From positions 1,289,026 to 1,353,025 of the forward strand of contig NZ_JAUFPK010000001.1 in the NCBI RefSeq assembly GCF_030409225.1: 64,000 bases of DNA, given 5' to 3'. The position numbers were made by a program, and so were the translations under genes. Under the pieces are notes generated by a model, which had not been told where the DNA came from, ran no database searches, and worked only from the letters and a program-made list of their open reading frames with translations. Below are positions 1-45,980 of this stretch, in pieces; position 1 is the first letter of the stretch, and every line of letters begins with the position of its first letter. The DNA comes from Aquisalimonas lutea. GTDB taxonomy: Bacteria; Pseudomonadota; Gammaproteobacteria; Nitrococcales; Aquisalimonadaceae.

Positions 1-917
1 ATCCGATAGTAAAGATCCTCGCGGAAGGCATTGTCCTTGATGAGTTGGCCGAGATTTTGGTGGGTCGCGCAAATCACACGCACGTCCACCGGAATCGACT
101 GACGCCCGCCGACGCGCTCCATGACACGCTCCTGGAGAAAGCGCAGCAGCTTTGACTGCAGCGCCATGGGCATGTCACCAATCTCGTCGAGCAAGACCGT
201 CCCGCCGTCGGCGTTCTCGAGCTTGCCCTTCGTCTGCCGATGGGCTCCGGTGTAAGCACCCTTCTCGTAGCCGAAGAGCTCACTCTCGAGGAGGTTTTCC
301 GGAATAGCGGCGCAATTGATCGCCACGAAGTTGCCTCTGGCCCGGTCGCTGAGGCTGTGGAGCGCACGCGCAAGCACTTCCTTGCCCGTGCCCGTCTCAC
401 CGAGCAGGAGGATGTTGCCGTTGGTGTTGGCGACTTTCTCGACCATCCGACAGATCTTGAGCATGCGCTGGCTGCCAGTGGCGAATCCGTCCAGGGCGGT
501 TCCCTGCGTGCGCAGCAGCTCACGATTCTGCCGTTCCAATTCAGCAACATGGAAGGCGCGCTCAACGATGAGGTTCAGCGTGTCGGGTTCGACGGGTTTT
601 TCGTAGAAGTCGTAGGCGCCGAGGCCGACCGCCTTGACCGCGCTGGATTCATCGCCGTTGCCGGTAACGACGACGACTTTCGTATGGGGGGCCGCACTGA
701 GGATCTCGCTGAGCGTGGCCATGCCTTCACTTGTGCCGTCCGGGTCCGGGGGAAGACCGAGGTCCTGGAGCACAACCATGGGCTCGTGGCGGCGCAACTG
801 CGCAAGTGCGCTTTCACGGTCCTCGGCATAGAGCACCTCGTAGCGATCAAAGTGCCAGCGAAATTGCGCCTGCATGCCGGGGTCGTCCTCGACGATGAGC
901 AGCTTTTGTGCACTCAC
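1..917 (-). CDS. prsR: PEP-CTERM-box sigma-54 response regulator PrsR (3' end beyond window)
   Basis: Cytoplasmic NtrC/AtoC-type activator of sigma-54 promoters, the partner of PrsK. Translating from a GTG at 915-917, which follows an AGGAGGAG ribosome site, gives 305 residues before the window ends. Residues 1-120 are a receiver domain with the acidic pocket IVEDDPG and phospho-acceptor Asp52 in VVLQDLGLPP. A sigma-54 AAA+ domain starts near 145, with Walker A GETGTGKE (173-180), a GAYTGA variant (220-225) of the sigma-54 contact loop, and Walker B VLLDEIGD. The Fis-type DNA-binding end lies beyond base 1. The GTG overlaps the TGA of prsK (GTGA), so the two are translationally coupled. The pairing with PrsK and the XrtA genes identifies it as the PEP-CTERM-box regulator rather than a generic NtrC protein. 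Confidence 0.93.
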   Translation of the reverse strand, partial: MSAQKLLIVEDDPGMQAQFRWHFDRYEVLYAEDRESALAQLRRHEPMVVLQDLGLPPDPDGTSEGMATLSEILSAAPHTKVVVVTGNGDESSAVKAVGLGAYDFYEKPVEPDTLNLIVERAFHVAELERQNRELLRTQGTALDGFATGSQRMLKICRMVEKVANTNGNILLLGETGTGKEVLARALHSLSDRARGNFVAINCAAIPENLLESELFGYEKGAYTGAHRQTKGKLENADGGTVLLDEIGDMPMALQSKLLRFLQERVMERVGGRQSIPVDVRVICATHQNLGQLIKDNAFREDLYYR

Positions 918-3034
918 CGGGCTCCTCCTGTCTGTGCTGCCGTGTCGCTCATCGATGCGTGAGGCTCGCCATCCCGCTGCCGGGCCGGCAGCGTCAGCCG
1001 GAACCGGGTGCCGGCACCCGGTTCACTCACCACACTAACGCGCCCGCCGAGCCGGTGGGCGAACTCGCGGGCCTGGTGCGCACCGATCCCCATGCCCTTG
1101 CTGGATTTGGTGCTGGTGAACGGGCGGAAGAGTTCATCGCGCACGAACTCGGGTGTCATACCCGCACCGGTGTCCGCGACGTCGATGATCATCTCGTTAC
1201 CGGCAACTTCCGCGCGGACGGTGACCGTGCCGTCATCGGGGGTGGCGTCCTGGGCATTGCGGACGAGATGGACCATGACCATGGCGAACTCGTCCGGGTC
1301 CGCCTCGACCACGCGGTCTTCCGTGGCGAGCTCGAGGTGCGGGTGCGGCGTGCGGTCGCCACAACGCGCGGCGGCGTCGTTGAGCAGGCGCTCGACGTTC
1401 ACCCGCTCGGTGAAACCGCGTTTCTGACTGCGCTGCAGGTGCTCCAGCAGCCGCTCCATGCGGCGCACGGAATTGCCGATGGTCTCCATGGCGTCGTCGA
1501 CAAAGGCCGGGTTGTGCTTGTGCTTGTCGGCATTTTTTACAACCAGCGACTGCTGCGCGATAAGGTTTTTCAGATCGTGCATGAGGAACGCCGTGAGCTG
1601 GTTGAATGCCTCAAACTGCCGGGCCTGGGACAGCGCCTGAGCGTCCTCGTATTGCCCGAGATAGCTGGCAATCTGGCGGCCGAGCGTTTTGAGAAGATCA
1701 CGGTCCTCCCAGGTGATCTCGGTATTCACATCAGGCCGGGACAGGAGAATGAATCCGGTCACCGTCTCCTGCTGGAGCAGCGGAATAATCGCCCATGCCT
1801 TGTCCATGTTCTCGATGGCGGCCGGAAGAGTCATGTGGTTGTACCGCTCCGGGCGATCACGGTACTCCGCCATGTCGATGATCCATTTATGTGTGCGCAG
1901 GAAGGTCACTAAGGGCGCGTCATCCGCGATCGTACTGTCGGCTGCGACGTCCGTGCGCCAGGCCCCCATGGGGGTGAATCCCCCTTCGAGCTCCTGGTGG
2001 CGCCAAACCACGCCGGACGGGCTGCCGACGATGGTTGCGACCACATGAATGGCGCGCTGATATGGGGTAAGGCCGTCGTTTTCTTCGGCGAGGCGATGCG
2101 TGAGCCGGAGCCACTCCTCGCGGTAGTCGTACTTGTTGCTGAAAAAATGCTTGCTCAAGAAGACCCGCAGGCGCGCCCGGACATCGCCGGAGGCGAGCAC
2201 CGCGATTAGCGCGACAGCCGCGGCTACCGTGAGCACGATCTGCGCGAATGCGCCCCAGGACCCGCCAAAGTCCCGGATATAATAGCCGCCGACTGCGATG
2301 AGCAGCAGGTATCCCCCGGCGCCCACGACGGCGGCGGTGTGGAACGCCACATGTCGGGAGACGAACACGGCCAGCGCCCAATCCCGGTTGCGCTGTGCGG
2401 CCACGGCGATCAACGGGACGGCAAGCGCCTGCACTGCGCCCCGGGCGTGCCACGCCGTAATATCGAGTTGCCGAAACAACAGGGAGTCGGCATACAGGTA
2501 GAGGTCGTAGGCGAAGATGACACCGACGCCGAGGCATAGGAACTTCATCGCCCAGCGGCGATCCTGCGGCAGATTCCGGTAGAGTTGCTCGAGGAGCACG
2601 AGGCCGAGCAGTCCGGAGAATAGCCCGCCAGTGATAAACAGCCCGTGCACCCCCATGGCCAGAGGTTGCCAGCCGCCCTCTGTGATGATCCGGTGTGCGC
2701 TGATTCCGATCAGCAACACGGACGGCCCGCCTAGGGCCAGTACCTGGAGTACCGGAATGGCGCGGCTCGCTCGCCGGAGCGGGGCGAGCAGCGATGCGAC
2801 AAACGCGAGCCATAGCCCGCTACGCAGCAGCTCGGTGGTCTCCACGAAGAAAACGGGCAGCTCGGGCGTCCAGGCGCCGGCAGCGAGCACGGCGGCCCAT
2901 AGAGCGGTCGCGGCGCATGCCCCGGCGAGGAGGACGCCGTGCCACCCACCGCGCCAGCTTGTGACCATCAGCACCGCAAGGAACGCAAAGGCCGCGGCGC
3001 CGAGGCCGTAGCTGATGAGCCCAATGACGCTCAT
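914..3034 (-). CDS. prsK: XrtA/PEP-CTERM system sensor histidine kinase PrsK
   Basis: Inner-membrane histidine kinase of 706 residues, the normal length for PrsK. Residues 1-290 hold about eight hydrophobic segments. A GAF-like region follows (about 300-460), then a dimerisation/phosphotransfer segment with FLMHDLKNL, in which His486 is the likely phosphorylated residue. The ATP-binding domain has the N box HLVRNAQDA, the G1 box VADTGAGM and the motif RPFTSTKSSKGMGIGA. It lies immediately upstream of prsR with a GTGA overlap and should phosphorylate Asp52 of that regulator. The input signal is unknown. It diverges from the deacetylase at 3273, with a 238-bp gap between them in which I see no clear sigma-54 site. 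A decayed piece of a second prsK-like gene lies at 4400-4550. Confidence 0.93.
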   Translation of the reverse strand: MSVIGLISYGLGAAAFAFLAVLMVTSWRGGWHGVLLAGACAATALWAAVLAAGAWTPELPVFFVETTELLRSGLWLAFVASLLAPLRRASRAIPVLQVLALGGPSVLLIGISAHRIITEGGWQPLAMGVHGLFITGGLFSGLLGLVLLEQLYRNLPQDRRWAMKFLCLGVGVIFAYDLYLYADSLLFRQLDITAWHARGAVQALAVPLIAVAAQRNRDWALAVFVSRHVAFHTAAVVGAGGYLLLIAVGGYYIRDFGGSWGAFAQIVLTVAAAVALIAVLASGDVRARLRVFLSKHFFSNKYDYREEWLRLTHRLAEENDGLTPYQRAIHVVATIVGSPSGVVWRHQELEGGFTPMGAWRTDVAADSTIADDAPLVTFLRTHKWIIDMAEYRDRPERYNHMTLPAAIENMDKAWAIIPLLQQETVTGFILLSRPDVNTEITWEDRDLLKTLGRQIASYLGQYEDAQALSQARQFEAFNQLTAFLMHDLKNLIAQQSLVVKNADKHKHNPAFVDDAMETIGNSVRRMERLLEHLQRSQKRGFTERVNVERLLNDAAARCGDRTPHPHLELATEDRVVEADPDEFAMVMVHLVRNAQDATPDDGTVTVRAEVAGNEMIIDVADTGAGMTPEFVRDELFRPFTSTKSSKGMGIGAHQAREFAHRLGGRVSVVSEPGAGTRFRLTLPARQRDGEPHASMSDTAAQTGGAR

Positions 3035-4550: not shown

Positions 4551-4756
4551 AACGACTTTCGATGGGGCCTCCTGCCTGTAGGCTGTCGTTCATCAAAGAC
4601 ACCAGAAAATTGTAATTCTAACAGCGGCTTAAAGTGCAGTTCAGAGCATGCTTGTTCGGTTCGTCGCAAAACGACGACAGGTTTCCGCTCTCCCGCGGTT
4701 TCCTTGGCCGGGTTGCAGGTGACCTAACCCTTGGATTTTATTCAATTATTGATGAT

Positions 4757-4772
4757 TGGCCTGGTTTTTGCG
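4757..4772 (+). promoter_or_regulatory. Sigma-54 type -24/-12 promoter for acyltransferase
   Basis: TGGCCTGGTTTTTGCG carries the -24 TGGC and -12 TTGC elements with the exact 10-base spacing between GG and GC. It lies about 100 bases before the acyltransferase ATG at 4874. The -24 hexamer is not perfect (CT instead of AC after TGGC). PrsR is the obvious candidate activator. Confidence 0.5.
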
Positions 4773-4873
4773 CGCGTGCTGTCACAAGCGTTATCCCGAG
4801 AACCGATGTCGAGTTCGGACTGGATTGCGTCTCCAGTCGCGCTTCCATCTGCGCATTTGTGAGGGCACCGCAC

Positions 4874-5593
4874 ATGAACGACCTCTCGTCCGTGTATGGC
4901 CATGTTTTGCTTGCTCAGCTTGTTGACAACCCAGCCTCCCAAGAGCTGGCCTTCCGATTACGACACCAGGTGTACTGCAAGGAGCGAGGCTTCGAACCGG
5001 ACGACAGTTTTCCTGACGGCCTGGAAAGGGATGAACACGACGACCGTGCGCTCCAGATCCTTGTCCGCAATCGGCTCTGCGGCTCGCCGCTAGGGGTTTC
5101 CCGTGTCGTGCTGGATGACCCAGGCGCACAGAGGAGCCTGCCGGTAGAAACCCATGGTTGCACGGCGGTCAGGGAACGTCTCGCTCGGCTGCGGGCTATG
5201 GAGTACGTCCAGTTGGCGGAAATCTCGCGATTTGCTGTTACCCGGAACCTCAACCGTGTCGTCGAATCGCAACAGGATGTTGGCTCGGCTCATGTGTCGA
5301 TGGGAGTGATTGCCATGATCTTCGCGCAGAGCTGGCGTTATGGCGTCACACATTGGGTCGGCTTACTGGATGCGAGCCTTCCGCGTTTCCTGCGTCGCCT
5401 CGGTATTACTTGCCAGCCGATCGGTTCAGTCATTGAGTTCCGCGGCACCCGTCAACCGGTGCTGGCCGACCTGCGGGATGTCTGGCAGGGAGTGGCCCGG
5501 CGGAATCCGGATCTGATCCGCTTGGCGGAGCGTTTCGCGAACGAGAGTCCGCTTCCCATGTCGCAGGCAACGGCGCACGCAGCCGCAAACTGA
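4874..5593 (+). CDS. PEP-CTERM/exosortase-associated acyltransferase (N-acyl amino acid synthase-like), copy 1
   Basis: GNAT/LuxI-fold acyltransferase of 239 residues. Members of this exosortase-linked family include long-chain N-acyl amino acid synthases (FeeM type), which move a fatty acyl group from acyl-ACP to an amino acid. The signature is FRLRHQVYCKERGFEP (residues 27-42), then DGLERDEHDDRALQ and the core AEISRFAVTR. The frame is open upstream to 4634, but I chose the ATG at 4874 because family members begin about 20 residues before the RLR motif, and GTGAGGG precedes it. A sigma-54-like site lies 100 bases upstream. It converges on a flavin oxidase, so product modification by that enzyme is plausible. 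The substrate amino acid cannot be read from the sequence. Confidence 0.85.
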   Translation: MNDLSSVYGHVLLAQLVDNPASQELAFRLRHQVYCKERGFEPDDSFPDGLERDEHDDRALQILVRNRLCGSPLGVSRVVLDDPGAQRSLPVETHGCTAVRERLARLRAMEYVQLAEISRFAVTRNLNRVVESQQDVGSAHVSMGVIAMIFAQSWRYGVTHWVGLLDASLPRFLRRLGITCQPIGSVIEFRGTRQPVLADLRDVWQGVARRNPDLIRLAERFANESPLPMSQATAHAAAN

Positions 5594-5660: not shown

Positions 5661-7334
5661 TCAGATTTCGTCCGTCCCTTCCACGTCCGGGTCGTCTGCG
5701 GAGCGGGCCGGCCGGTAACGGCCGGGTGCGAGAATCCCTTGTGGGTCGAGCGCGTGACCGAGCCGAGTGATGAGCCGGTTCCATGCCGCCGCGCTTTTGT
5801 GGTTGATGGGCTCCATCTCATGGCTGCCGAGGCGGTACGGGTAGTATCCTGCGCCGGTCAAGGCGTCGAGCAGTTCGCGATGGCAGCTCAGGGCACGGCT
5901 GTCCTCTCCGGGCACCCCGCGATCATAGTGAAGGGCGACGATGCAATCGAGGGCCCGTTCCGAGATGACGGTCATGGAAATCATGGGCTCGAAACCATGT
6001 CTGTCGAAAACCTCTTTGACGATGGCGTTGAGCTGAACTGCATCGCCGCCCTTCAGCGGCGCGACCGGAGCGCACCAAAGCAGACCGCACCGGTCGCGGT
6101 CCGGGTCCGGTTCACTGGGCACGCCACCGGTGTGTCGCCAGTAAAGGCTCTTTAGCATCTCTTCGGTGGGGACGCCAGTCTTGATGCCCGTGAGCGCACG
6201 CAGCAGTTCGGTGATCCGCCGGACTGGAGTCCGGGACACAACGGTCAGGGGGGCCGCCAGTCGCTCCATCCATGCCAATCGGCGCTCATCGAGAAAGCGA
6301 ATCTGGCGGACTTTTACTTCGCGGCGAACTCTCCGCCGAATCTCACGGCGTGCCAGGGAGACTTGTGCCCGAGTGCCGTAGAGACCGCCCGAGAAGCTCC
6401 ACGGCCCGGCACCAGAGCGCTCCAGGGCCTGATCGACGTGCTTCCGGGGCAGCGGCGTGCGTCCGCCGGTCTTCTGCCACGGGAAGGTCGGGTTGAGGGC
6501 GCTATAGATCTTGTACGCGTTGCCGATGTGGACCGCGCTGCGAACGAATCCTTGCCGCCGTAACTCACGAAGCGCGGTGACACAGCCGTGCAGGTCGTCT
6601 TCCCGTGCCAAGGTCACGTGGAAGTACTGGAAGTACTCCGGCTTCGGCATTAGCCATACTGTCATCGCCGTCACGATACCGAGGTTCGATTGGGAGAACA
6701 GACCGTCGAGATACGGGCCGACGCCCCAGCGGTAGGCGTCCTTCGCCTTGGCGTTGTCGAAACGGCCGAACCCGGTATGCAGCAGATCACCATCCGCCGT
6801 GACCACCTCGAGCGCGCAGACGTGGGCAAAGTGGTCCGCGTACGGGCTGTGCCCGAAGCCGCGTTCGATGTAATTCGCGAGCACACTGCAATGGCTGCTT
6901 GAGCCTGTGACATCGAGCCAGTACTGGTCGCCTTCTGCGTTCAGGAACGCCGCCAGTTGCCCCTGAGAGACGCCCGGCTCCAGCGAGACGGTCCCCAGTT
7001 CTGGGTCGTATTCACGGATGTGGTCCAGGCGGCTCAACCGCAGGACAACGCAATCGCCGCAGTCCGGCGGAAGGGTCCCGTAGCCCCAGTTCCGTGCAGT
7101 ACTGACCGTGTACAGTGGGATGCCGTAGTGGGCCGCGATACGCACGCACGCCTGCACTTCCGTGACGGTGCCCGGAAGGAGTTCCACCGCGATGCGGGCA
7201 TCGTGAGGGAAGGTGTGTCCCAGTGCGCCGTCGGCTGGCTCCCGATCCCCCAGGACATGGCTCTCCCCGAGAAGCCGGGTCCACTCTTCGGTGGCCTGAT
7301 CAAGAGAGGTTGCCCACGTGTTCGACGGTGCCAT
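5661..7334 (-). CDS. FAD-binding oxidoreductase of the VAO/PCMH (4-cresol dehydrogenase-like) family
   Basis: Flavoprotein of 557 residues. An FAD-binding type-4 domain spans about residues 40-230, with AVELLPGTVTEVQ, STARNWGYGTLP and the loop ERGFGHSPYADHF, which corresponds to the GVGYTPYGDHF loop of p-cresol methylhydroxylase and vanillyl-alcohol oxidase. A substrate-cap domain follows and the C-terminus has LDPQGILAPGRY, the usual family ending. Known relatives oxidise para-substituted phenols. There is no signal peptide. The gene converges on the N-acyl amino acid synthase-like gene with a 67-bp gap and lies downstream of the PEP-CTERM gene terminator. I infer oxidation of an aromatic (perhaps tyrosine-derived) product, but this is not proven. 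Confidence 0.82.
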   Translation of the reverse strand: MAPSNTWATSLDQATEEWTRLLGESHVLGDREPADGALGHTFPHDARIAVELLPGTVTEVQACVRIAAHYGIPLYTVSTARNWGYGTLPPDCGDCVVLRLSRLDHIREYDPELGTVSLEPGVSQGQLAAFLNAEGDQYWLDVTGSSSHCSVLANYIERGFGHSPYADHFAHVCALEVVTADGDLLHTGFGRFDNAKAKDAYRWGVGPYLDGLFSQSNLGIVTAMTVWLMPKPEYFQYFHVTLAREDDLHGCVTALRELRRQGFVRSAVHIGNAYKIYSALNPTFPWQKTGGRTPLPRKHVDQALERSGAGPWSFSGGLYGTRAQVSLARREIRRRVRREVKVRQIRFLDERRLAWMERLAAPLTVVSRTPVRRITELLRALTGIKTGVPTEEMLKSLYWRHTGGVPSEPDPDRDRCGLLWCAPVAPLKGGDAVQLNAIVKEVFDRHGFEPMISMTVISERALDCIVALHYDRGVPGEDSRALSCHRELLDALTGAGYYPYRLGSHEMEPINHKSAAAWNRLITRLGHALDPQGILAPGRYRPARSADDPDVEGTDEI

Positions 7335-7533: not shown

Positions 7534-8370
7534 TCAGCGCCGCCGGGCAGCAGCGAGACCCATTCCCAGCAGACCAACACCAAGCAAGCCCAGAGCGCCC
7601 GGGGCCGGTACCTGGGTCGCGGAAACCTGGAGCTGGAATTGTGCCGTGGTTGCCTGGTCTTCCTCTGTCATGAAGCCAAAACAGCCCGGACCAGCGCCCG
7701 CTTCGTCGCAGGCCTCATCGTTCAGTGTACCGAGCCCAGCGGCAACGATGGACACTGTATAAAGCCAGCCATCAACCTCGAAGCTCTCCTGCAGATCACT
7801 GGGGTCGCCACCGAGCAAGAAGATATCGTCGCAATTCGACGCTGACCCTTCGAAGCAGGAGTCTTGGTTTAACGTCTCGGTAAAGAATATCGGGAACGTC
7901 CGATCATCGTCGAATGAACCATCGCCGGGAGGTGCAGCCTGCGTCAGCGTGAGCGAACTCAGCAGGCTTGCACTTTGCAGCAATGGGTACGAAGACAGTA
8001 TGGCGTTATTAAAGTGCGTGACCTCGGCGGTATCTTGTGCCGCGCCATTAGTCTGCAGGCTGCCGGAGAAGGACGTGTCTCCGATCTCCAGTGCGCTTCG
8101 GCTGTTGGAGGCGTTAGCGTCTACGTTGATGAAGTTGCCATCGTCATCGATAAAGTTGTCGTCGTCCGCCGCCCCCCAACTAAGGAGACTGCTACTGACC
8201 GATGTGCCTCCTCCGCCGTCGCCAGAAGTGAATGTCGGAGCGCCGCCCCCGTCGGTGACCCATTCCAGTGAGCCATTGAAATCCCAGTCCGTGATCAGTT
8301 CCGCGCTTGCCGGTGCGGTGACCAGTCCCAGCGCGGCGCCTGCGGCTACGGCAACGTGTAAGCTCTTCAT
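7534..8370 (-). CDS. THxN-family PEP-CTERM sorting-domain protein
   Basis: Exported surface protein of 278 residues and a likely substrate of XrtA. The signal peptide is residues 1-24 (AVAAGAALGLVTAPASA). The mature part is acidic and Gly/Ser/Asp rich, starting LITDWDFNGSLEWV, and carries the THFN motif at 118-121 that names the THxN family. Two Cys pairs lie in DSCFEGSASNCDD and DEACDEAGAGPGC. The C-terminus has the sorting signal VPAPGALGLLG, a hydrophobic helix and AAARRR. It has PAP instead of PEP. I chose the second ATG because GGAGGGA lies 6 bases before it but only 0-2 bases before the first. A sigma-54 promoter and a terminator make it a single-gene unit, probably controlled by PrsR. 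Confidence 0.88.
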   Translation of the reverse strand: MKSLHVAVAAGAALGLVTAPASAELITDWDFNGSLEWVTDGGGAPTFTSGDGGGGTSVSSSLLSWGAADDDNFIDDDGNFINVDANASNSRSALEIGDTSFSGSLQTNGAAQDTAEVTHFNNAILSSYPLLQSASLLSSLTLTQAAPPGDGSFDDDRTFPIFFTETLNQDSCFEGSASNCDDIFLLGGDPSDLQESFEVDGWLYTVSIVAAGLGTLNDEACDEAGAGPGCFGFMTEEDQATTAQFQLQVSATQVPAPGALGLLGVGLLGMGLAAARRR

Positions 8371-8471
8371 GTTCATTCCCTCCGAAACGCGTGTTTGATC
8401 CGTCGAATAGACGTCTGTCGTGTCCAGTTGCGATGCACTCTTCCGTATGGTCTGCCTCGATCATCAAGTTT

Positions 8472-8920: not shown

Positions 8921-11188
8921 TCACCAAGCGCGTGTCCTTGCTGCCGTGCGCCCATGGAAGAGGCACAGGACGGCGGGAAGCAGCAGCAGATCGAACAGCA
9001 GCGCGGCGGCCAGCGCGCCTGCGGTGAGTAGGCCAAAGGCCTGGGTCGGCTGGAAGTCGGACGTAGTCAAGAGCAGGAACTGCAGGCAGAGCACCAGGGT
9101 CGTCGCGCAAAGCGCCCGGCCCGTGCCCCGGACAGCGCGCGCGAGGGCGAACACCGTGCCTGCACCCCGCGCGCGTCTCAGGCGGTAGGCGTGAAACAGA
9201 TGGATGGTGTCGTCAACCGCGATGCCCACCGCAACGCTAGCTATCATGGCGGTTCCCGTGTCCAGCCAAATGCCAAAGGTCCCCATGGTGATAAAAATGC
9301 AGAGTATCGGGGCCGCGTTGGGAATCATGCACAGCGCTGCGGCGGGCAACGAGCGCCAGATCAGGACCATGAATAAGAACACGAGGATGATCACCACCAC
9401 AAGGCTGCGGATCTGCCCTTCGATCAGCAACTGTACCTGATCGGCGAACAGTCTCCCGGTGCCCGCGGTAGTCCACCGGATCCCTGTCGTATCCTGCACG
9501 CCGACCTCGTCCCGCATGCGTTGAGTGAAGGCGGCCAGCTCCGAGGCGCCATGGATGTTGAGATTGGTCACCAAGCGCGCGCGCTCGAAGTCGCGGTCAA
9601 CCATGTCATACAGGTCACGACCGTCATAGATGAGTAGATACTGAGCGATGATCTGGCGGTTGTCCGGCAGTTGGCGGTAGTCGGGATTGCCGTCGTGAAA
9701 CGCCTGGTGCATCTCCTCGATGACGTCCACCAGAGAGAACGTGTAATCCACCTCTGGTTGCGCCGCTAGCCACTCTTGGAAGCGCTGCACTACGCGCAGG
9801 TGATCCGGATCGCGAAGATCGGTTCCTGGGGGGGCGTCGAACACGATCTCCATCGGCATGACGCCGCCCAGCGTGTCCTCGACGCGTTCGGTCGCCTGTG
9901 TGAGTGAGTGACTCTGGTCGAAGAACCGGTACAGATCCGTTTCCACCGTGATGTGCCGCAACTGCGGCAGGCCGATGGCCAAGATGACGACCGTCCCGAT
10001 CACCACGGCCAGGGGGTGACGTAAGGCATAGCGTGTCAGCGGCCTTGTGACCCGGTCCAGGTGCCGGAGCTGGCCACGCTTGGTGTCCCATTCGCCGTGG
10101 TCCCAACGCAGCACAATGGCCGGCAACAGCCAAGTGACGACGAAGTAGATCACGAGCACTCCGATCGCGGCGGAGATTCCCAGCGTTGCAATCGGCTGAA
10201 TCGGGCTCAGGGCGAGGGACGCGAGTCCCGCTGCTGTGGTCAGTGCGGTGAACAGGATCGGGCGGTGAACCGCGGCCAGAACATGCCCCATGCGGGGGAG
10301 ACCGCGGAGTCCGGTGCGGGTCGCTTGATGCATACCGTTGAACAGGTGCATAAGCGCCGCCATGGAGATGGCGGCAAGCAGTGGAGCGGTGATAGTTTGG
10401 ATCAGGTTGAAAGGCTGGTTCAGCAGGGCGACCATCGCCAGGGCCGTGTGCGCGGAGGCGGCGGTCGTGGCGATTGCCGCAAACAGCACCAGGTAGCGGC
10501 GGAACAGCAGCCACAGGAGCGCCAGCCCGAGCAGCAGCACACCGGGGATGAAAACAAGATTATCCCGCACCATAGCGCGTAGCTGGGCAACATCGAGCGC
10601 GATGGGTCCCGCCACGGCGGTCAGCTCTGTCGCGAGCCCTGAGGAAGCAATCGCCTCACGGGTCAGGCGCTCCACCGCCCGTCGATCGAGGCTTCCGCGA
10701 AGATCCTGGGGCCGGACAATCAGGGCATAGGCGGCGCCGTCCGTCGAGACAAGGAGGCCCGCCGCATTGCGGTCCTCCGTTGCTCGAGTTCGCCAGTCTT
10801 CCGGCGGCCTCGTTTCCGGGGCGTTGCCATCTACAAGGGGCTCCACCGCGAAACCGTCGGGTGTGGCGCGGATGCTTTCGGTTGTCGTGACCGCAAGCAC
10901 CCGCTCCACCAGCGAATGGCCTTCCAGCTCGCGCGCCGTGTCGTGGAGGACTTGCAGGAAGTCATGATCGAAGAGCCGCTCTCCCTCGAATAGGGCGATC
11001 AGTACTTCCTCCGACGGAAAGCGTTCTCGCAGCGCGCGCTCAAACTGCACTGCATCGGCGTGTTCGGGAAGGTAGGTTTCCGGGGCGTTGTCCACCTCCA
11101 GAGTTCCGAGCACGGCCAGCGGCGCCGCAACCACCAGTACCAGGATGCACAGAGCCAGGCGTGGATATCGCAGCATCGCGTACGGCAT
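8921..11188 (-). CDS. RND/MMPL family transporter (HAE3-like)
   Basis: Inner-membrane transporter of 755 residues with the two-fold RND plan. There is one N-terminal helix (about 9-28), a large periplasmic loop (30-205), a first bundle of helices (about 210-385) including a sterol-sensing-like core, a second loop (405-610) and a second bundle (615-735). The SVAVGIAVDDTIHLFHAYR segment is typical of MMPL/RND proteins and carries the intramembrane acidic pair used for proton coupling. HAE3-type proteins move lipids or hydrophobic molecules, not drugs alone. It is the last gene of a four-gene operon (acyltransferase, SPOR-barrel, LolA-like, RND; gaps of 23 and 42 bp), which suggests export of an acylated product across the envelope. 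Confidence 0.88.
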   Translation of the reverse strand: MPYAMLRYPRLALCILVLVVAAPLAVLGTLEVDNAPETYLPEHADAVQFERALRERFPSEEVLIALFEGERLFDHDFLQVLHDTARELEGHSLVERVLAVTTTESIRATPDGFAVEPLVDGNAPETRPPEDWRTRATEDRNAAGLLVSTDGAAYALIVRPQDLRGSLDRRAVERLTREAIASSGLATELTAVAGPIALDVAQLRAMVRDNLVFIPGVLLLGLALLWLLFRRYLVLFAAIATTAASAHTALAMVALLNQPFNLIQTITAPLLAAISMAALMHLFNGMHQATRTGLRGLPRMGHVLAAVHRPILFTALTTAAGLASLALSPIQPIATLGISAAIGVLVIYFVVTWLLPAIVLRWDHGEWDTKRGQLRHLDRVTRPLTRYALRHPLAVVIGTVVILAIGLPQLRHITVETDLYRFFDQSHSLTQATERVEDTLGGVMPMEIVFDAPPGTDLRDPDHLRVVQRFQEWLAAQPEVDYTFSLVDVIEEMHQAFHDGNPDYRQLPDNRQIIAQYLLIYDGRDLYDMVDRDFERARLVTNLNIHGASELAAFTQRMRDEVGVQDTTGIRWTTAGTGRLFADQVQLLIEGQIRSLVVVIILVFLFMVLIWRSLPAAALCMIPNAAPILCIFITMGTFGIWLDTGTAMIASVAVGIAVDDTIHLFHAYRLRRARGAGTVFALARAVRGTGRALCATTLVLCLQFLLLTTSDFQPTQAFGLLTAGALAAALLFDLLLLPAVLCLFHGRTAARTRAW

Positions 11189-11211
11189 GGGCGGCGTCTG
11201 TGGGCAATCGC

Positions 11212-12054
11212 TCAGGGGATATAGTCGTCTGCTGCGTCCGCGTCGCGCAACGTCTCTGTCACGAAGAGGCGATCGGGAATCCCCTGGTCGTAGGTGACGG
11301 CGTCAATCCGCAACTCCGTGCGATGACCGGATTCCAGATCCGTCATGACGCTGCTCATCACCGTCCAGTAGCCCTGGTGGCGCTCGATCCGCTGGACCTC
11401 AAGCCGTTTCGTTGGCTCCTCGCCGTTCTGGTAGAAGTCGACCCGGATGGGAATGAGCGTTTCCTCGTGGATCCAGCGGACCCGTCGCGAGTAGACGGAT
11501 TCCTCCCCATTATCCCGCGGGACGCTCTCCAGTCTTGTGGTTTCCGCCCCATCGATCGTCTCGGTTCCGGTCACCCGGTGGACGTCCTGCGAGGGATGAC
11601 GATCCTGCAGATCCTCGTAGAAAAAGTCCGAGGAAACGAAACGCCCACCGCGGCGGTTCGAGGCGATCCGGCGAATGCGGTCCAGTGCCGGCAGGTAGAG
11701 CCACTGGTCCGTGGTGTCGCGCGCATGGTCGTGCATCAGCAACGCGGTGTCGCGGATATCGGCGGGGCTGTCGAAACGAATCAGAGTCCGGGTCTCGCCA
11801 TCGCCCCGGTCGAGCCTCAGAGTGACCATCTCCCGCTCCCGCGGCGAGCGCCCTTCCTCTAGGAGGATCATCGATCCTCGGGTGGCCGCGTCGTTGCCAT
11901 CGGGACGCTCGTACACGTCGATCGCGAGCGCCATCCCAGCATCCGTGTCCGCCGCTTCCGCCGCAGTGGCCGAGAGTGTCAGGATGAGCCCTGCTGCGAT
12001 AAGGGCCACGAGCGCTTTCGATCGCGTCCGCCTCTGCTTGCTTGCATGATTCAT
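11212..12054 (-). CDS. Outer membrane lipoprotein-sorting protein (LolA-like)
   Basis: Periplasmic protein of 280 residues with a signal peptide (residues 1-34, ALIAAGLILTLSATAAEA). The mature domain has the LolA-like beta fold of uncharacterised outer-membrane lipoprotein-sorting proteins: SMILLEEGRSPRE, then a DQWLYLPALDRIRRI motif and FVSSDFFYEDLQ, which are strongly conserved in partners of MMPL transporters. The final part, GIPDRLFVTETLRD, is also typical. Proteins of this class are nearly always next to an RND/MMPL gene and are thought to carry lipid across the periplasm. Here it lies 23 bp upstream of that transporter, so the two likely work together. Confidence 0.87.
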   Translation of the reverse strand: MNHASKQRRTRSKALVALIAAGLILTLSATAAEAADTDAGMALAIDVYERPDGNDAATRGSMILLEEGRSPREREMVTLRLDRGDGETRTLIRFDSPADIRDTALLMHDHARDTTDQWLYLPALDRIRRIASNRRGGRFVSSDFFYEDLQDRHPSQDVHRVTGTETIDGAETTRLESVPRDNGEESVYSRRVRWIHEETLIPIRVDFYQNGEEPTKRLEVQRIERHQGYWTVMSSVMTDLESGHRTELRIDAVTYDQGIPDRLFVTETLRDADAADDYIP

Positions 12055-12096
12055 GTCCGTTGCCCCCGGGGATTGATTGACCTGGTCCAGTGTTTA

Positions 12097-13971
12097 CTAG
12101 AACTCCCCGCGCCATCCAGCCACGATGAGCCGGTTGTCCTGGAAGAAACCGCCGGCGGTGCGGTCCGTTCCTTCGTAGTAGTGTGCGCCGAGATAGAATT
12201 CCTGCGCGGGTATCGCGGTATAGGCGATCTCGGGATTCGCGTAGACATCCCGCCGGTCGAGCCGGTGGGAGAACCGGAGCCGCGCCCGCCACCGGCCCCG
12301 ATCAAACGTCCTCTCGATCTCGCCGCCCAAGTAGTAGCTCTCGGTGTCCTCCTGGATCCCTTCGGCTCCAAGCAGGTGCTGTGCGCTGAACTGAAGGGTG
12401 ACCCGCAGTTCCCCGTCACCGGGGAAACTCTCCATGCTGGCCGCCCAGTCGATGGCTTCGACCGTGTCAAATGCCAAATCGTTCGTGGTCACCGGCACGT
12501 CGCTGAGCCAGGCGCCCTCCGCCCGCCAGGTGACCCCGCCCATGCTGAAGGCGAGGTCACCGCCGACAACAAAGGTACGCGGGTGGCGAGCGCGAAACGT
12601 GTCCCCGTCCGCGGCGTCCAGCGCGGCCGCCGGATCTCCGGTTTCGAGCAGGGCCTGACGGGCGTCGTCGTCCAGCTCATAGTAGGGTGCCGACCGGCGG
12701 GCGCGCTGAATCGTGAACGCGTAATCCAGCCCCCGGCCTTCACGACTGATCCGGATGCCGCCGCCGCCATCGCCGCTCACGTCGTCGTTGAAGTCTCCCT
12801 CGCGAACCAGAACCGCGAGCGCATCGTCCTGGCGTCGCCCCAGCAACCGGCCTTCCCGCTGGTCGACCGGGTGCCAGATGCTGTCGTCGTGGGGCAGCGT
12901 GGCGGGACGGAACAAGGGCAGGAACACGGCGTCCACGCGATGGCCGGCCAGCGTGGTCTCAAACCGGACAGCGGGTGACGCACGGTAGCGATCCTCTAGC
13001 GGATCTAGATTGAAGCGGGTGAGGTCACGGGTGGCGAGCCGGTCCGTCGGGGGCTGTTCGTCCATTTTCCCCCAGTTGGGAGTCTGTGCGCCGATCGTCA
13101 ATTGCACCTCGTCCGTGCGATAGCGGACGAAGGTGTCCTCGTAATCCAGGCGCGCCGATTCCAGGCTTTCATCCCCCGTCTGGCCAACGACGTCGACGCG
13201 TGCGCCGGCGCGAAACTCCAGGAAAGGGAACGGTTCATAGCTGCTTCTAACGGCCAGCATGGCGTGGTTGCTGCTGCTGGCTGGGGCGTCGGACGATGTC
13301 GTGACGCCGCCCTCCATCCGGCCCTCGTCGAGCCCGAAGCGAACTTGCCGCCCGTCTTTGTCGCGACCGCGCTCGCGTGTGTCCATGCGCTCGGCGTTAC
13401 TGTCATCAGGGGCACCGAAGTCGAATGCCTCCGGTTCGTTTGCCGCGTCGGCCGTCACCCGTAGCTCAAAGACGCGGACTGGCTGCGCCGGCGGACCGAT
13501 TTCCAGATCTCGATACCCTGCATCCTGAACGAGCCTGAGGTGTCGCTGCAGGCGGTTTTCGCTGCCGAATGGGCCAACGACGACACCGTAGGTTCCGTCG
13601 GCATCCGCGAAACTGGTGGCGGTTGCGTCGTTCGTATCAAGCTGCCTGGCCGCGCGTGCCGCCGCAGCCTCGCTAGAGAAACCGCGTATGCGGATCTCGT
13701 CAAGGCCGGCGCGGCACCACACCGGGATACGCGTCACCGTCATGCCTTCCCCCTCCAGTCGTGCGGCTTCCTCCCGCGCCTCGGCTTCCGGCAGACACCG
13801 GAGGGTGAAGTCTTCACGGTGCTCGGCGTCCGCCATGGATTCGGTGGAGACCATGGCGAGTGCCAGTACACTAGCTACAAGCAGACGTGTCGCGGTAAGG
13901 TGCAGGGTGCGGCGTCCTGTAGCCAGTGGAGCACGGGTGTCAGAAGCCGGCCTTAGAAGGGTCGCTGCCAT
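12097..13971 (-). CDS. SPOR-domain fused to an outer-membrane beta-barrel protein
   Basis: Predicted outer-membrane protein of 624 residues. The frame is open to 14088, but the ATG at 13971 gives a signal peptide with a long charged start and core LLVASVLALAMVSTESMA (about 30-47). Residues 50-165 look like a SPOR peptidoglycan-binding repeat: FTLRCLPEAEA, IRIRGFSSEAAAARAARQL and YGVVVGPFGSENRLQRHL. From about 210 onward there are alternating strands ending in an aromatic residue plus F (GWRGEF), as in DUF1302/alginate-export-type barrels. It overlaps the 3' end of the acyltransferase by 32 bases and is followed by the LolA-like gene. Likely role: outer-membrane exit pore or receptor for the product handled by the RND and LolA-like proteins. 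Start choice is uncertain. Confidence 0.75.
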   Translation of the reverse strand: MAATLLRPASDTRAPLATGRRTLHLTATRLLVASVLALAMVSTESMADAEHREDFTLRCLPEAEAREEAARLEGEGMTVTRIPVWCRAGLDEIRIRGFSSEAAAARAARQLDTNDATATSFADADGTYGVVVGPFGSENRLQRHLRLVQDAGYRDLEIGPPAQPVRVFELRVTADAANEPEAFDFGAPDDSNAERMDTRERGRDKDGRQVRFGLDEGRMEGGVTTSSDAPASSSNHAMLAVRSSYEPFPFLEFRAGARVDVVGQTGDESLESARLDYEDTFVRYRTDEVQLTIGAQTPNWGKMDEQPPTDRLATRDLTRFNLDPLEDRYRASPAVRFETTLAGHRVDAVFLPLFRPATLPHDDSIWHPVDQREGRLLGRRQDDALAVLVREGDFNDDVSGDGGGGIRISREGRGLDYAFTIQRARRSAPYYELDDDARQALLETGDPAAALDAADGDTFRARHPRTFVVGGDLAFSMGGVTWRAEGAWLSDVPVTTNDLAFDTVEAIDWAASMESFPGDGELRVTLQFSAQHLLGAEGIQEDTESYYLGGEIERTFDRGRWRARLRFSHRLDRRDVYANPEIAYTAIPAQEFYLGAHYYEGTDRTAGGFFQDNRLIVAGWRGEF

Positions 13972-14686
13972 CGAGCTGGCCAAGCATGAAGGCGTAGAGC
14001 ATCTGCAGATTGGCGTTGCCATCGCGTTCAGCCTGCTGAAGGTGAATGTAGTACGGCGCCCGAGTCCCATGATAGTCCACGATTTCACCGATTTGCTGAA
14101 AGTGAATCCCGCAGCGCCCCAGCAGCCGCGCCAGCTTGGGTTCCATCATGGCGTACACATGCTCCCGCTTGGCGACTCGCACCAGCGCCGCCGCAGCGAC
14201 GAACATGGAAATCCCGATCAGGGGGAGAGTGCGCGCTTCGCGGTCATCGACACCGTCAGGATCCGGGTTACCGACGGGGCTGCGCTTCTCCCCGGGACGG
14301 CAACGAAAGCGAGCAGTTACGGCAAGGCGGGAGATCTCGCAGATGCGGTCCTTGGGGTGATTTCCGGGATGGAACGGACCCGGTTCCAAGCTGTCTCCGC
14401 AAAATGCCGCCATCGGGAGCTCGGATCCTTTGTCGGGCGGAACGATCACCCGGACACAACCGGCTACCGTCCTGCTCCTGGCATGCCGCAAAAGGCAATG
14501 CAAGGAGACAGCGTCGTATTCATCTGTCTCCATTGCGCCGGGGCAGTCCTCTGGACGTTCGAACGCGAATTCTCGGCAGTACACCTCGTAGCGTAAACGA
14601 AAAATTTCCTCCAACTGACGTGGAGTTGACGCTCGCTCGTAGCTGAAGTATCGCGGCAGCGCCTCCCATGGGGATGATTCACTCAT
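13940..14686 (-). CDS. PEP-CTERM/exosortase-associated acyltransferase (N-acyl amino acid synthase-like), copy 2
   Basis: Second LuxI/FeeM-like acyltransferase, 248 residues from the ATG at 14686 (an upstream ATG at 14701 would add MESIC). Diagnostic parts are IFRLRYEVYCREFAFERPED, then GAMETDEYDAVSLHCLLR and CEISRLAVTARFR, and a later GISMFVAAAALVR. It differs clearly from copy 1 at 4874, so it is not a recent duplicate. It is the first gene of an operon with a SPOR-barrel, a LolA-like protein and an RND transporter. That context suggests that its N-acyl product is exported, or that the acyl group ends up in the envelope. The amino acid acceptor is unknown. Confidence 0.84.
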   Translation of the reverse strand: MSESSPWEALPRYFSYERASTPRQLEEIFRLRYEVYCREFAFERPEDCPGAMETDEYDAVSLHCLLRHARSRTVAGCVRVIVPPDKGSELPMAAFCGDSLEPGPFHPGNHPKDRICEISRLAVTARFRCRPGEKRSPVGNPDPDGVDDREARTLPLIGISMFVAAAALVRVAKREHVYAMMEPKLARLLGRCGIHFQQIGEIVDYHGTRAPYYIHLQQAERDGNANLQMLYAFMLGQLDGSDPSKAGF

Positions 14687-14884
14687 GCAGATGGACTCCA
14701 TTCACGTAGACGCACTCAAGCCATGCGGGCGCGACAGGGCCAACATCCAGGTTATCCTGGCCCCCATCCCCCGGTAGCTTCGCCAGTAAAGCCACCCCAA
14801 GATCCCCGGGTCTCGGCGAGTTCCACCAATCCGCCTTTCGGGGTTGTAGCGGAGCCATGAGATAGTATGCCGGGGCGCCAATCC

Positions 14885-14900
14885 TCCAAGTGAGGTGCCA
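14885..14900 (-). promoter_or_regulatory. Weak sigma-54-like site upstream of the acyltransferase-export operon
   Basis: Minus strand TGGCACCTCACTTGGA has a perfect -24 half (TGGCAC) and correct spacing, but TTGG instead of TTGC at -12. It lies about 200 bases before the acyltransferase start. The missing -12 C makes it only a candidate. Confidence 0.35.
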
Positions 14901-15011
14901 TGAGCAGCAGGCCTGGTTGAGAGTGTAGTATTTCAACGCAAGCCTGTGGGACAAACGGTGACTGGCCACCTCATCAGCCCTTATGCTATCTATGATAACA
15001 GGAGCATCGTA

Positions 15012-26116: not shown

Positions 26117-27026
26117 TCAAGCCGCGATCCCCAAGCTGTCTCGGTACTCGCGTGGGCTTAGGGCACCGAGCGATACCTTGATCCGTTTCCCGTTATACCA
26201 GCGGATGTAAGCATCCACCGCCTCCATGAACTGCTCCAGCGTCGTGGCACGCCAGTCCCTGGGGTAGAACAGTTCATTCTTGAGACGACCGAAGAAGCCT
26301 TCGCAGGCTGCATTATCCGGCGTGCAGCCTTTGCGGGACATCGATCGGGTCAGCCGCGCATCCGCGATACGCGATAGCCATCCGGGCCAGCGATAATAGG
26401 CGCCGCGGTCAGAGTGGACGATGGGCTTCTCGTCCTCGTTCAGCGAGGCGACAGCCTCGTCGAGCATGGCGTTCACCAGCTCGGCATCCGGTCTGGTGCC
26501 GATGGTCCAACTGACCACCAGCCCGTCGAAGCAGTCAATCATGGGTGATAGATAGACCTTGCCCGCGGGGAGCTGGAACTCCGTGATATCAGTCAGCCAT
26601 TTCTCGTTGGGCGCCGCTGCACCGAAGTCACGATTGACGAGGTTGTCGACCGCAGGGGTGATTTCTCCCCCGTAGGAGCTGTACCGGCGACGCCGCCTGG
26701 TGTGAACGACCAGTTGCTCTTCTGCCATCAGCCGGCGAACGATCTTTTCGGAGACGACGATTCCGCGGTGACCCAGCTCGACGCCAATGCGCCGATACCC
26801 GTAGCACCGGTGGTTGAGCTCGAAGACGTCCGTGATGATACGGCGGGCGCCCGCATACTTGTCCGGTGTCGCGAGCCGCGCCCTGTGGTAGAAGTAGGAA
26901 CTGCGTGGCAGCCGTAGCTCGGTAAACAGCTCCGACAATGCGTAGGCCTCCCGCATGGCGTCAATCAGCAGGGTCTTCTCCTTGTTGCTCGGGAGCTGCA
27001 GATCGACGCCGTGGTCCTTTTTTATT
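26117..27026 (-). CDS. IS3-family transposase OrfB (by -1 frameshift)
   Basis: Catalytic half of the IS3/IS150-type transposase. The HTH_21 region has YAGARRIITDVFELNHRCYG and the rve integrase core starts at NEKWLTDITEFQ (first Asp). It continues with HSDRGAYY (second Asp) and the Glu in DNAACEGFFGRLKNEL; the end is REYRDSLGIAA. The conventional ATG start is at 26956, but the frame extends to the slippery AAAAAAG (about 27021-27027), where ribosomes shift from orfA. It therefore normally forms an OrfAB fusion. The DDE triad is complete. Confidence 0.88.
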
Positions 27027-32294: not shown

Positions 32295-33683
32295 AAGTGT
32301 GTAACTCGGCGTCCGGGAGGATTGCCGGGCCGGTCAGGCAGGGAGGCTGAGAGGCCACCGCGGGTCTCGTTAGGATTCGGGCTGAATCAAGACGTAGGAC
32401 CCAATCGAAGGAGAACCCGCGATGACCGAGAACAGGATGGCACTGCTGGAGATGGCTGAGAAGGGTGGCGATTTGGACTTTCTGCGTGAGCTCGTACGCG
32501 AGGTCGTCCACGAGCTCATGGACGCGGAAGTCACCCAGCGCTACGGGGTCGAGCGCAATGAGCGAAGCGAGCAGCGCTCGGATCAGCGCAACGGCTACCG
32601 CACCCGGCGCTGGGATACCCGGGTGGGGAGCATGGAACTGCAGGTCCCGCGGCTTCGCCACGCCAACTACCTGCCCTCGTTCCTGGAGCCGCGGCGGCCG
32701 ACCGAGCAGGCGCTGGTGGGTGTCGTCCAGGAGGCGTATATCCAGGGCGTGTCGACGCGCTCGGTCGATGAGCTGGTCAAGGCCGCCGGCATGGAGGGGA
32801 TATCCTCATCGCAGGTCTCGCGGCTGTGTGCCTCGATCGACGAGCGGGTACAGGCCTTCCTCGAGCGGCCCATCGAGGGGCACTGGCCGTTTCTATGGCT
32901 CGATGCGACCTACGTGAAGGTCCGCGAGCACGGCCGGGTGGTCTCCAAGGCCTGTGTGATCGCTGTGGGCGTGAACACCGAGGGCCGCCGGGAGGTGCTG
33001 GGGCTGCGCGTGGGCCCGAACGAGACCCAGGGCTTCTGGAAGCAGTTCCTGCGCGAGCTCCTGGGCCAGGGGCTGACGGGGGTGGAGCTGGTCATCTCCG
33101 ACGCCCACCAGGGGCTCAAGCGCGCCGTCGGCGAGGTGCTCCAGGCGAGCTGGCAGCGTTGCCGCGTGCACTTCATGCGCAACATCCTCTCCTACGTCGC
33201 CAAGCGCCACCAGAGCATGGTCGCGGCGATGGTGCGCACCGTGTTCGCCCAGCAGGACCACGCCCAGGCACGGGCGCAGTGGCGCACTGTGGCCGATCAG
33301 CTCCGGGGGCAGTTCCCCAGGGTCGCTGAGGCGATGGACGCTGCCGAAGAGGACGTGCTCGCCCACATGGCCTACCCGGCGGCGGTGTGGTCGAAGATCT
33401 CCTCCACCAACCCGCTGGAGCGGGTGAACAAGGAGATCAAGCGCCGCAGCAATGTCGTGGGCATCTTCCCGAACGACGAGGCGGTCACCCGCCTGGTCGG
33501 GGCGGTGCTCACCGAGCAGACCGAGGAGTGGGCCACGGGGCGGCGCTACATGAGCCTGGACAGCCTGCAGCAGGTCACCCCGGCTGACGCCGATGACCCC
33601 GAGCAGGCCCTGGCCCAGCTCGACGAGCAGGTAGCCTGAATCAGGGAAGAGACCGCGGTGGTCAATGAAGACCTTTTACACAG
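32295..33683 (+). mobile_element. IS256-family insertion sequence
   Basis: It carries one intact transposase gene (32422-33639). Short end similarity can be seen: GTGTGTAACTC near 32298 and, inward from the right, CTGTGTAAAAG near 33683. It lies inside the IS5-type copy B transposase and has removed about 35-40 codons of it, judging from related proteins, so deletion accompanied or followed insertion. No clean target duplication was found. Confidence 0.72.
32422..33639 (+). CDS. IS256/Mutator-family transposase
   Basis: Intact protein of 405 residues, the usual family length. Motifs are DAEVTQRYGVERNERSEQRS at the N-terminus, then LWLDATYVKVREHGRVVSKA (first Asp) and LVISDAHQGLKRA (second Asp). 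The zinc-like region RCRVHFMRNILSYV follows, and the Glu lies in SSTNPLERVNKEIKRRSNVV. It ends in a typical acidic tail. This is the only complete transposase in the hotspot, so this element may still move and could have helped shape the region. Confidence 0.95.
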   Translation: MTENRMALLEMAEKGGDLDFLRELVREVVHELMDAEVTQRYGVERNERSEQRSDQRNGYRTRRWDTRVGSMELQVPRLRHANYLPSFLEPRRPTEQALVGVVQEAYIQGVSTRSVDELVKAAGMEGISSSQVSRLCASIDERVQAFLERPIEGHWPFLWLDATYVKVREHGRVVSKACVIAVGVNTEGRREVLGLRVGPNETQGFWKQFLRELLGQGLTGVELVISDAHQGLKRAVGEVLQASWQRCRVHFMRNILSYVAKRHQSMVAAMVRTVFAQQDHAQARAQWRTVADQLRGQFPRVAEAMDAAEEDVLAHMAYPAAVWSKISSTNPLERVNKEIKRRSNVVGIFPNDEAVTRLVGAVLTEQTEEWATGRRYMSLDSLQQVTPADADDPEQALAQLDEQVA

Positions 33684-44590: not shown

Positions 44591-45958
44591 TCAACTGGCA
44601 CGGCTGGATTGTGGAGACTGGCAGCTATTCTTGATCAGACGATACTTGCCGGACGATTCACGAGGGATGTCGTCGCGAAACACGACAGATACCCGCATCC
44701 GCGGATGCAAATGGCGGCGAAATGCATCTTGCGCACGCTGCTCAAGGGTGGTTCTGGCCGGGGAATCCGTGGTGACAAGGTGGATCTCAAGGGCGTCGGT
44801 GGCGGTTTGGACAACTTGGTATTTCTCGACTGCTACGTGGCCAGTCAATAGCTCATCAACGATGTAACACACGCGCGCTGGGTGGTGGCGGGTGTCATCG
44901 GGGGTGACGACGGCATCCTCGACTCGGCCGTGGATATCCGTTATCACGGGAAAGGCCAACCCGCATGAACAATGAGGTTGTAGCTGGATCGTCGCGAAGT
45001 CTCCCAACCGGTACCGGACGACAGGTGTGATCGTGTTGGTGAGATCCGACACCAGAAGCTCCCCGGTGCCTTCCGGGGTGATGCGACCGTCCTCATGCAG
45101 AATCTCGAGCAATAGGTGGTCTGCCATGATGTGCCGACGGCCGGCGGTACACTCATGGGCAATGGAGCCCACTTCGCTGGCCCCGTATTCGTCACTGGGT
45201 GCCACCCCGAACCCCTGGGTAATCGCCTCTCTCTCCTGTGGACTCATTGGCTCTGCAGTGGTGATGATTGCAATGAGGTTATCAGGCCCGCTGATACCAT
45301 GCTGGGTCATGAACCGGGCAAGCGTCACAATCGCGGAGGTGTAGCCGTACATGTAGCGCGGATTACAGTGGATGATCCGCCGAACGCGGGCGGCCAAGGT
45401 CTTCTCGGTTACATCGAACGCGTTGATCGGGATCGTATTGAACACAGCCTGTTTCACCCGTCCCATGAGCTGCTGTTGCCTGGACAGGGCACGGCCCCAA
45501 ACGCGGACGCCCCGATCCCCAAGCCGGACTCCAAGCCAGCCATAGGCCCGCCAAGTTGCCGCCAACTCGGCTGCGACGCCGGCGCGATCCTTGAGAATGC
45601 GTAGTGGACGGCCCGTGGAACCGCTGGTGTGCTTTTCGATGGTCGCGATGCGATGCGCGTGCGTATATGCGAGGATCTCGGGGTGTAGTTCCGCGAGGCG
45701 TTGCTTGTCCAGGACCGGGTGACTGGCAAGTGCTGCTGGGTCGTTCTCGATATCTTCCGCGAACGTAGCGGATGGGAGGGTCCTCGCGTACGTGTCCGAG
45801 TGGGTGGCTCCGGCACGCACTACATGTGCCAGTCGCTGACGCTGGTGATCGGCAAGGTCTGGCCCTTGCAGGTTCTGGTTCTGCTTTGCCCGGGCCAGAT
45901 GGGTGTGAACCCTGAGGCCGCGCACACGCAGGGCCGCGTTGAGTATCAACTTCCGCAT
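44591..45958 (-). CDS. Phenylacetate-CoA ligase-like (PaaK/CapK family) adenylate-forming enzyme
   Basis: Protein of 455 residues from the ATG at 45958. The frame is open farther upstream, but that part lies inside the preceding glycosyltransferase. The phosphate-binding loop is IEKHTSGSTGRPLRILKD, then SDEYGASEVGSIAHECTAG for the adenylate. VSDLTNTITPVVRYRLGDF and the C-terminal GKYRLIK carry the catalytic lysine. CapK-type relatives occur in capsule and EPS loci, where they are thought to activate a carboxylic acid for transfer to a sugar. The spacing (22 bp after the GT4, 11 bp before the asparagine-synthase-like gene) supports one operon. Confidence 0.85.
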   Translation of the reverse strand: MRKLILNAALRVRGLRVHTHLARAKQNQNLQGPDLADHQRQRLAHVVRAGATHSDTYARTLPSATFAEDIENDPAALASHPVLDKQRLAELHPEILAYTHAHRIATIEKHTSGSTGRPLRILKDRAGVAAELAATWRAYGWLGVRLGDRGVRVWGRALSRQQQLMGRVKQAVFNTIPINAFDVTEKTLAARVRRIIHCNPRYMYGYTSAIVTLARFMTQHGISGPDNLIAIITTAEPMSPQEREAITQGFGVAPSDEYGASEVGSIAHECTAGRRHIMADHLLLEILHEDGRITPEGTGELLVSDLTNTITPVVRYRLGDFATIQLQPHCSCGLAFPVITDIHGRVEDAVVTPDDTRHHPARVCYIVDELLTGHVAVEKYQVVQTATDALEIHLVTTDSPARTTLEQRAQDAFRRHLHPRMRVSVVFRDDIPRESSGKYRLIKNSCQSPQSSRAS

Positions 45959-45980
45959 GGAGGGATTCTTCGGCTCCTGG

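Follow-up and report, generated by a model that had tools for sequence, protein, structure and literature searches.

A candidate export route for acylated amino acids or derived lipids in an exosortase locus of Aquisalimonas lutea

Analysis of a 64,000-nucleotide stretch of the genome of the salt-loving bacterium Aquisalimonas lutea (contig NZ_JAUFPK010000001.1, positions 1,289,026–1,353,025; hereafter the window) revealed a four-gene operon encoding an exosortase-associated N-acyltransferase, an outer-membrane β-barrel protein with a SPOR domain, a LolA-like periplasmic carrier, and an RND/MMPL transporter. The operon lies within an XrtA/PEP-CTERM exopolysaccharide locus, and we consider it marginally better than an even bet that it serves to synthesise and export an acylated amino acid or a derived lipid.

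An open reading frame check of the window found four co-directional genes on the minus strand, encoding the acyltransferase (13940–14686), the barrel protein (12097–13971), the LolA-like carrier (11212–12054), and the RND/MMPL transporter (8921–11188). The first two overlap by 32 bp (spacing −32 bp), followed by gaps of 42 and 23 bp; positions, strand, and spacing all agree with a preliminary description of this DNA. The start codon of the acyltransferase was placed at the ATG at 14686, which is preceded by GGAG at 9 nt, as an in-frame ATG at 14701 was less well placed. A divergent intergenic region (14687–14945) separates the operon from an XrtA-type glycosyltransferase gene starting at 14946 on the plus strand and is the presumed promoter region; a promoter scan of this interval found no sigma-70 site, and terminators were near chance level. 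Comparison with locus L016 of a related genus revealed purifying selection on all four genes, with nonsynonymous divergence (dN) of 0.08–0.18 and synonymous divergence (dS) of 0.68–0.73. The operon is not a chance arrangement, since it recurs in identical order at L016 and in rearranged versions in many families.

The acyltransferase scored 218.1 bits against the TIGR03694 profile (curated cut-off 111.95) and was also above the cut-offs of PF21926 (FeeM) and PF00765 (autoinducer synthase). Its AlphaFold2 model (predicted local distance difference test score, pLDDT, 91) showed a LuxI/FeeM-like GNAT fold, with Foldseek matches to LasI, TofI, BjaI, and FeeM (2g0b). The conserved catalytic Glu and Arg are present: E117, S119, R120, R32, D55, and R79 are invariant across 42 homologues, and an E-x-x-R motif is conserved. 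The enzyme is thus a full-length homologue of the exosortase-type N-acyl amino acid synthases, which bears out the label that it had been given, and its fold and conserved residues suggest that it moves a fatty acyl group onto an amino acid. Disruption of ExoAT, an exosortase-type N-acyl amino acid synthase of Methylomonas LW13, abolished the normal polysaccharide band, which was restored by complementation (PMC11072679).

In the barrel protein, Pfam analysis matched SPOR (PF05036), and the AlphaFold2 model (pLDDT 87) comprises an N-terminal α/β domain (residues ~55–174) that covers the SPOR match, a disordered linker (176–206), and a barrel (211–622). A structure search with the model returned OmpF/OmpC porins, and a sequence profile found no barrel relative among solved structures. 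The window protein did not match PF06980 (DUF1302) at an E-value of 0.1; this family was matched in 8 of 36 aligned relatives, which indicates distant kinship only, and our barrel profile (A1) also picked up DUF1302 proteins, such as that of locus L090. The N-termini of the 36 relatives carried SPOR in 10 cases and LysM in 5. The carrier, which is the only PF17131 (LolA_like) protein in its genome, scored 199.5 bits against that family and 33.3 bits against PF07044 (DUF1329; cut-off 23.1), so that PF17131 fits better; its solved relatives are 9tp6, 3bk5, 4z48, and 3buu.

The 755-residue transporter has 12 predicted transmembrane segments (TM) and matched MMPL (PF03176) with 114 bits. The best NCBIfam model by E-value was TIGR00921 (HAE3), whose score of 144.7 bits is below the cut-off of 351.9. 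Asp659–Asp660, located in TM10, showed no variation among 22 relatives; acidic residues are lacking in TM4. Among solved structures, the pump profile came nearest to HpnN and MmpL4/MmpL3, which transport hopanoids, siderophores, and mycolates. Identity with HpnN was ruled out (82.2 bits against a cut-off of 751.85).

To assess how widely these genes occur together, we analysed a sample of 369 genomes of the class Gammaproteobacteria. TIGR03694 proteins above the cut-off were present in 47 genomes and an exosortase was matched in 118 (110 above the cut-off), while strong barrel matches occurred in 25, either of an RND type (12 genomes) or of a DUF1302, ABC-linked type (13 genomes), never both. 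TIGR03694 was found in 19/25 barrel genomes versus 28/344 without a barrel (p = 2.5e-14), and the association held within exosortase genomes alone (18/24 versus 16/94, p = 1.4e-7); these p values are optimistic because related genomes are not independent, the 25 barrel genomes representing about 17 families. An exosortase was present in 24/25 barrel genomes, including all 13 of the ABC-linked type, versus 94/344 others. A LolA-like gene, a barrel gene, and a pump gene lay within 9 kb at 13 of 57 TIGR03694 loci, and the complete set was found at none of 20 loci of sub-cut-off superfamily acyltransferases and none of 20 places drawn at random from the same genomes. At L111, which would be the eighth locus with an RND pump, the contig ends before the LolA gene is reached.

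Besides the window, a single close relative (genome G009, locus L016, SLLM01000109.1, Ectothiorhodospiraceae), at 74–85% identity, showed the exact four-gene order. Loci in Thioalkalivibrio, Halorhodospira-type metagenome-assembled genomes, and others had the order second acyltransferase, TIGR03694, ThiF-like, LolA-like, barrel, RND. The preliminary description had looked to conservation of the four-gene order across genomes; the order itself did not prove general, while the link between acyltransferase, LolA-like carrier, barrel, and pump recurs, and the concern that the genes might rarely co-occur is answered by the barrel genome counts. Among 14 genomes without TIGR03694 beside the trio of carrier, barrel, and pump, 7 have one elsewhere and 7 have none. 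Two split sets (L233/L019 and L234/L022) probably reflect assembly breaks, as both halves stop at contig ends. In Halochromatium roseum (L231), RND, ThiF, and TIGR03694 genes stand together on the same contig as the LolA-like and barrel genes, about 90 kb away. The trio of Halorhodospira abdelmalekii (L024/L050) lies outside any recognised exosortase locus.

The 13 complete loci carried one of two unrelated pump types in the same setting of LolA-like carrier, barrel, and acyltransferase, in some cases with ThiF: an RND pump in 7 and a LolCDE/MacB-type ABC exporter (two FtsX/MacB permeases and an ATPase) in 6, with none carrying both. ABC exporters replacing RND beside LolA-like and SPOR/DUF1302 barrel genes in exosortase loci were seen at L090:920-5060, L104:5271-12272, L228, L229, and L225. 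Phylogenetic analysis placed exosortase-linked LolA-like proteins in clades of their own, with RND-linked and ABC-linked carriers forming two well supported, separate groups; a single clade of both was not rejected by the approximately unbiased test (p = 0.287). The two pump types may reflect an exchange of pumps or two separate recruitments. On the acyltransferase tree, linkage to RND-type loci required about 10 changes and linkage to ABC-type loci 4, suggesting that it was gained or lost repeatedly. A swap between RND and LolCDE-type pumps in one setting would be a natural experiment on the loading of LolA-like carriers.

The commonest further partner was a ThiF/E1-like gene, present at 25 of the 57 TIGR03694 loci. 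These PRK08223-type enzymes stand beside exosortase acyltransferases at L090:6869-8857, L083:8678-10660, L023:5940-6803, and other loci, and in some they are fused to an Acg-type nitroreductase domain. Nucleotide-binding residues are present; a thioester E1 role with a catalytic cysteine is unlikely, as no cysteine was invariant in 19 sequences. The genome of the window has no ThiF-like gene (best match 30% over 144 residues).

From the established genes, families, folds, selection, association, and pump exchange, we infer the following route. A cytoplasmic GNAT enzyme would take a fatty acyl group from a carrier molecule and attach it to an amino acid; the RND pump would draw the resulting amphiphile out of the inner membrane, driven by the proton gradient; the LolA-like protein would hold it in a hydrophobic cavity and ferry it across the periplasm; and the barrel, anchored through its SPOR domain, would insert it into, or pass it through, the outer membrane. 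In most relatives, a further modification of the product by the ThiF/E1-like enzyme is probable. The preliminary description had likewise proposed synthesis of an acylated amino acid and its carriage, or that of a lipid bearing it, to the outer membrane; the enzyme family and its recurrent link with carrier, barrel, and pump uphold this in part, the cargo, its amino acid, and the outward direction being putative. A broader version, which we regard as quite unlikely, would make exosortase loci hosts of a dedicated envelope lipid pathway consisting of a synthase, often an E1-like enzyme, and a LolA-like/barrel line with an RND or LolCDE-like pump. Its lipid would serve the exosortase system, for instance as an anchor for PEP-CTERM proteins or the matrix, with the pump delivering the lipid or an anchored protein to the surface.

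Several observations weigh against export of an acylated amino acid or derived lipid. No complete set lay within 9 kb at 44 of the 57 TIGR03694 loci, and the distribution is patchy, with no barrel found in the same-genus genomes G002–G004. TIGR03694 above the cut-off is missing from 6 of the 25 barrel genomes (G119, G123, G199, G252, G310, and G365), and the set occurs without it in Lamprobacter, Halorhodospira abdelmalekii, and several metagenome-assembled genomes, so the cargo may be another one, or more than one. PF17131 proteins are also frequent in unrelated settings. AmeABCD of Castellaniella defragrans, an HAE3 RND cassette, is linked to monoterpene tolerance or efflux (PMC6394551), and DUF1302/DUF1329 genes of Pseudomonas putida are required for growth on Tween20, which fits simple export badly (PMC10866462). 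The preliminary description had named a trio regularly found without an acyltransferase and with a different known cargo as telling against its proposal; this applies in part, to the six genomes and AmeABCD, and the association still holds. The trio could instead be a general transporter of hydrophobes or lipids of the AmeABCD kind, acting in efflux or uptake and travelling with exosortase loci, with the acyltransferase a mere neighbour that has its own role. AmeABCD and PP_0765/PP_0766 of P. putida comprise the same kinds of protein with other cargo, and about a quarter of the trio genomes lack TIGR03694. However, the TIGR03694 association persists inside exosortase genomes and for two pump types, and exosortase-linked carriers form their own clades; we consider this explanation unlikely.

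Alternatively, the trio may be dedicated to Lol-like sorting of exosortase products: exosortase would couple PEP-CTERM proteins to a lipid, possibly supplied by the acyltransferase, and pump, carrier, and barrel would bring the lipid-anchored protein to the outer membrane or surface. The near confinement of barrels to exosortase genomes, more even than their link to TIGR03694, is consistent with this, as are the PEP-CTERM genes that flank the trio in many loci, including the window, and the resemblance of the alternative pump to LolCDE, the lipoprotein extractor. However, genome G411 has acyltransferases, ThiF, a barrel, and an RND pump, with no exosortase detected, most exosortase genomes have neither barrel, and RND pumps of this kind are known to carry small lipids, not proteins. 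These points leave sorting decidedly unlikely. That the trio moves a lipid of the exopolysaccharide pathway itself, bound to polysaccharide or undecaprenyl, seems very improbable: the constant place of the trio in XrtA loci with a chain-length determinant, tyrosine kinase, and glycosyltransferases and a weak Wzi similarity among barrel members point to it, yet most XrtA loci lack the trio, so polymer export is independent of it, and LolA-like cavities fit acyl chains, not polymers.

The surroundings of the operon identify the locus as an XrtA/PEP-CTERM exopolysaccharide locus, with an exosortase, PrsK, a chain-length determinant, FemAB, and TIGR03015/TIGR03016 proteins. The exosortase (53706–55238, minus strand) is an EpsH-like domain fused to an EpsI-like domain, matching TIGR02602 (above cut-off), TIGR02914, and TIGR03109; its XrtA model score of 206.3 bits is slightly below the cut-off of 208. 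The histidine kinase PrsK (914–3034, minus strand; TIGR02916, 755 bits) is a marker of this locus type. Other members are an XrtA deacetylase, TIGR03088-like and TIGR03087-like glycosyltransferases, a PEP-CTERM protein of the THxN family, a predicted exosortase substrate encoded just beyond the 3' end of the RND gene (7534–8376, minus strand; NF038125, 223 bits), and a second TIGR03694 acyltransferase (4634–5593, plus strand; 143.3 bits) that shares 21–22% identity with the first. The barrel gene at L021, from another Aquisalimonas genome, is adjoined by a relative of this second copy, not of the first. Convergent with the second copy is a PF01565 oxidase gene of the flavin adenine dinucleotide-binding type (5661–7334) with no equivalog match, and a PaaK-like AMP-dependent acyl-CoA ligase gene (44591–46342) offers a possible acyl activation step. 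Transposase genes of the IS3 and IS256 families lie at 26117–26956 and 32422–33639 within the polysaccharide locus. A PilZ-domain gene directly precedes the acyltransferase pair at L033:5836-6456 and 10 similar, Thioalkalivibrio-type loci; since PilZ fusions of N-acyl amino acid synthases have been described (PMC4897644), cyclic di-GMP control of these loci is plausible.

Among the known systems closest to the window operon, AmeABCD likewise joins an outer-membrane barrel, a LolA-superfamily protein, and a 12-TM RND pump, which in AmeABCD is of the HAE3 type, in one operon. It differs in its fourth protein, AmeC (COG4447), in its DUF1302 proper, in lacking an acyltransferase, and in that SPOR or LysM has not been reported. 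The window operon has no AmeC counterpart between its members and no PF06980 match, which rules out identity with AmeABCD despite the DUF1329 match of the carrier. DUF1302/DUF1329 or MMPL and LolA-domain transporters for amphiphiles or hydrocarbons are also known from P. putida (PP_0765, PP_0766, PP_2018, and PP_2019; PMC10866462) and Thalassolituus (TOL_3187/3188; PMC6304351); unlike the window set, they are connected with growth on Tween20 or long alkanes rather than with exosortase loci. The Lol pathway shares the LolA-like carrier, and the ABC variant, with two FtsX/MacB permeases and an ATPase, resembles LolCDE in make-up. The window trio is not the Lol pathway, since it has an RND pump in place of LolCDE, the ABC form being confined to other lineages. 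The Borrelia BBJ23-29 cluster pairs a LolA-like protein, a type VII ABC exporter, and a barrel (PMC13078400); in contrast to Lol and Borrelia, the window barrel is porin/DUF1302-like, not Omp85, LolB is lacking, and an acyltransferase is linked. HpnN and MmpL3/MmpL4 resemble the window pump as RND/MMPL exporters of lipids or lipid-like compounds and lack comparable LolA-like or barrel partners. The N-acyl amino acid synthase family was reportedly linked with PEP-CTERM/exosortase by Craig et al. in 2011. Later papers (PMC11072679, PMC7293339) share the enzyme family and exosortase setting and do not describe the linked LolA-like/barrel/pump set. In the stieleriacine cluster of Stieleria maiorica, N-acyl amino acid synthases stand beside a PEP-CTERM gene and a ThiF-like (TcdA-annotated) gene (PMC7293339), which the ThiF/E1-like gene of our loci resembles; that cluster is planctomycete, the trio was not identified there, and the window has no ThiF-like gene. 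A literature search, outside which Craig et al. 2011 lay, found no report combining exosortase with LolA plus RND or with ThiF plus acyltransferase, and among the matches listed by a wider search none combined exosortase with LolA, MMPL, lipoprotein sorting, or DUF1302. In the searchable literature, neither this gene combination nor ThiF as a partner in exosortase loci of Gammaproteobacteria nor the RND/ABC exchange appears to have been described; the statement that no described system has this exact set is in keeping with this, while each component is of a known kind and the trio has its precedent in AmeABCD.

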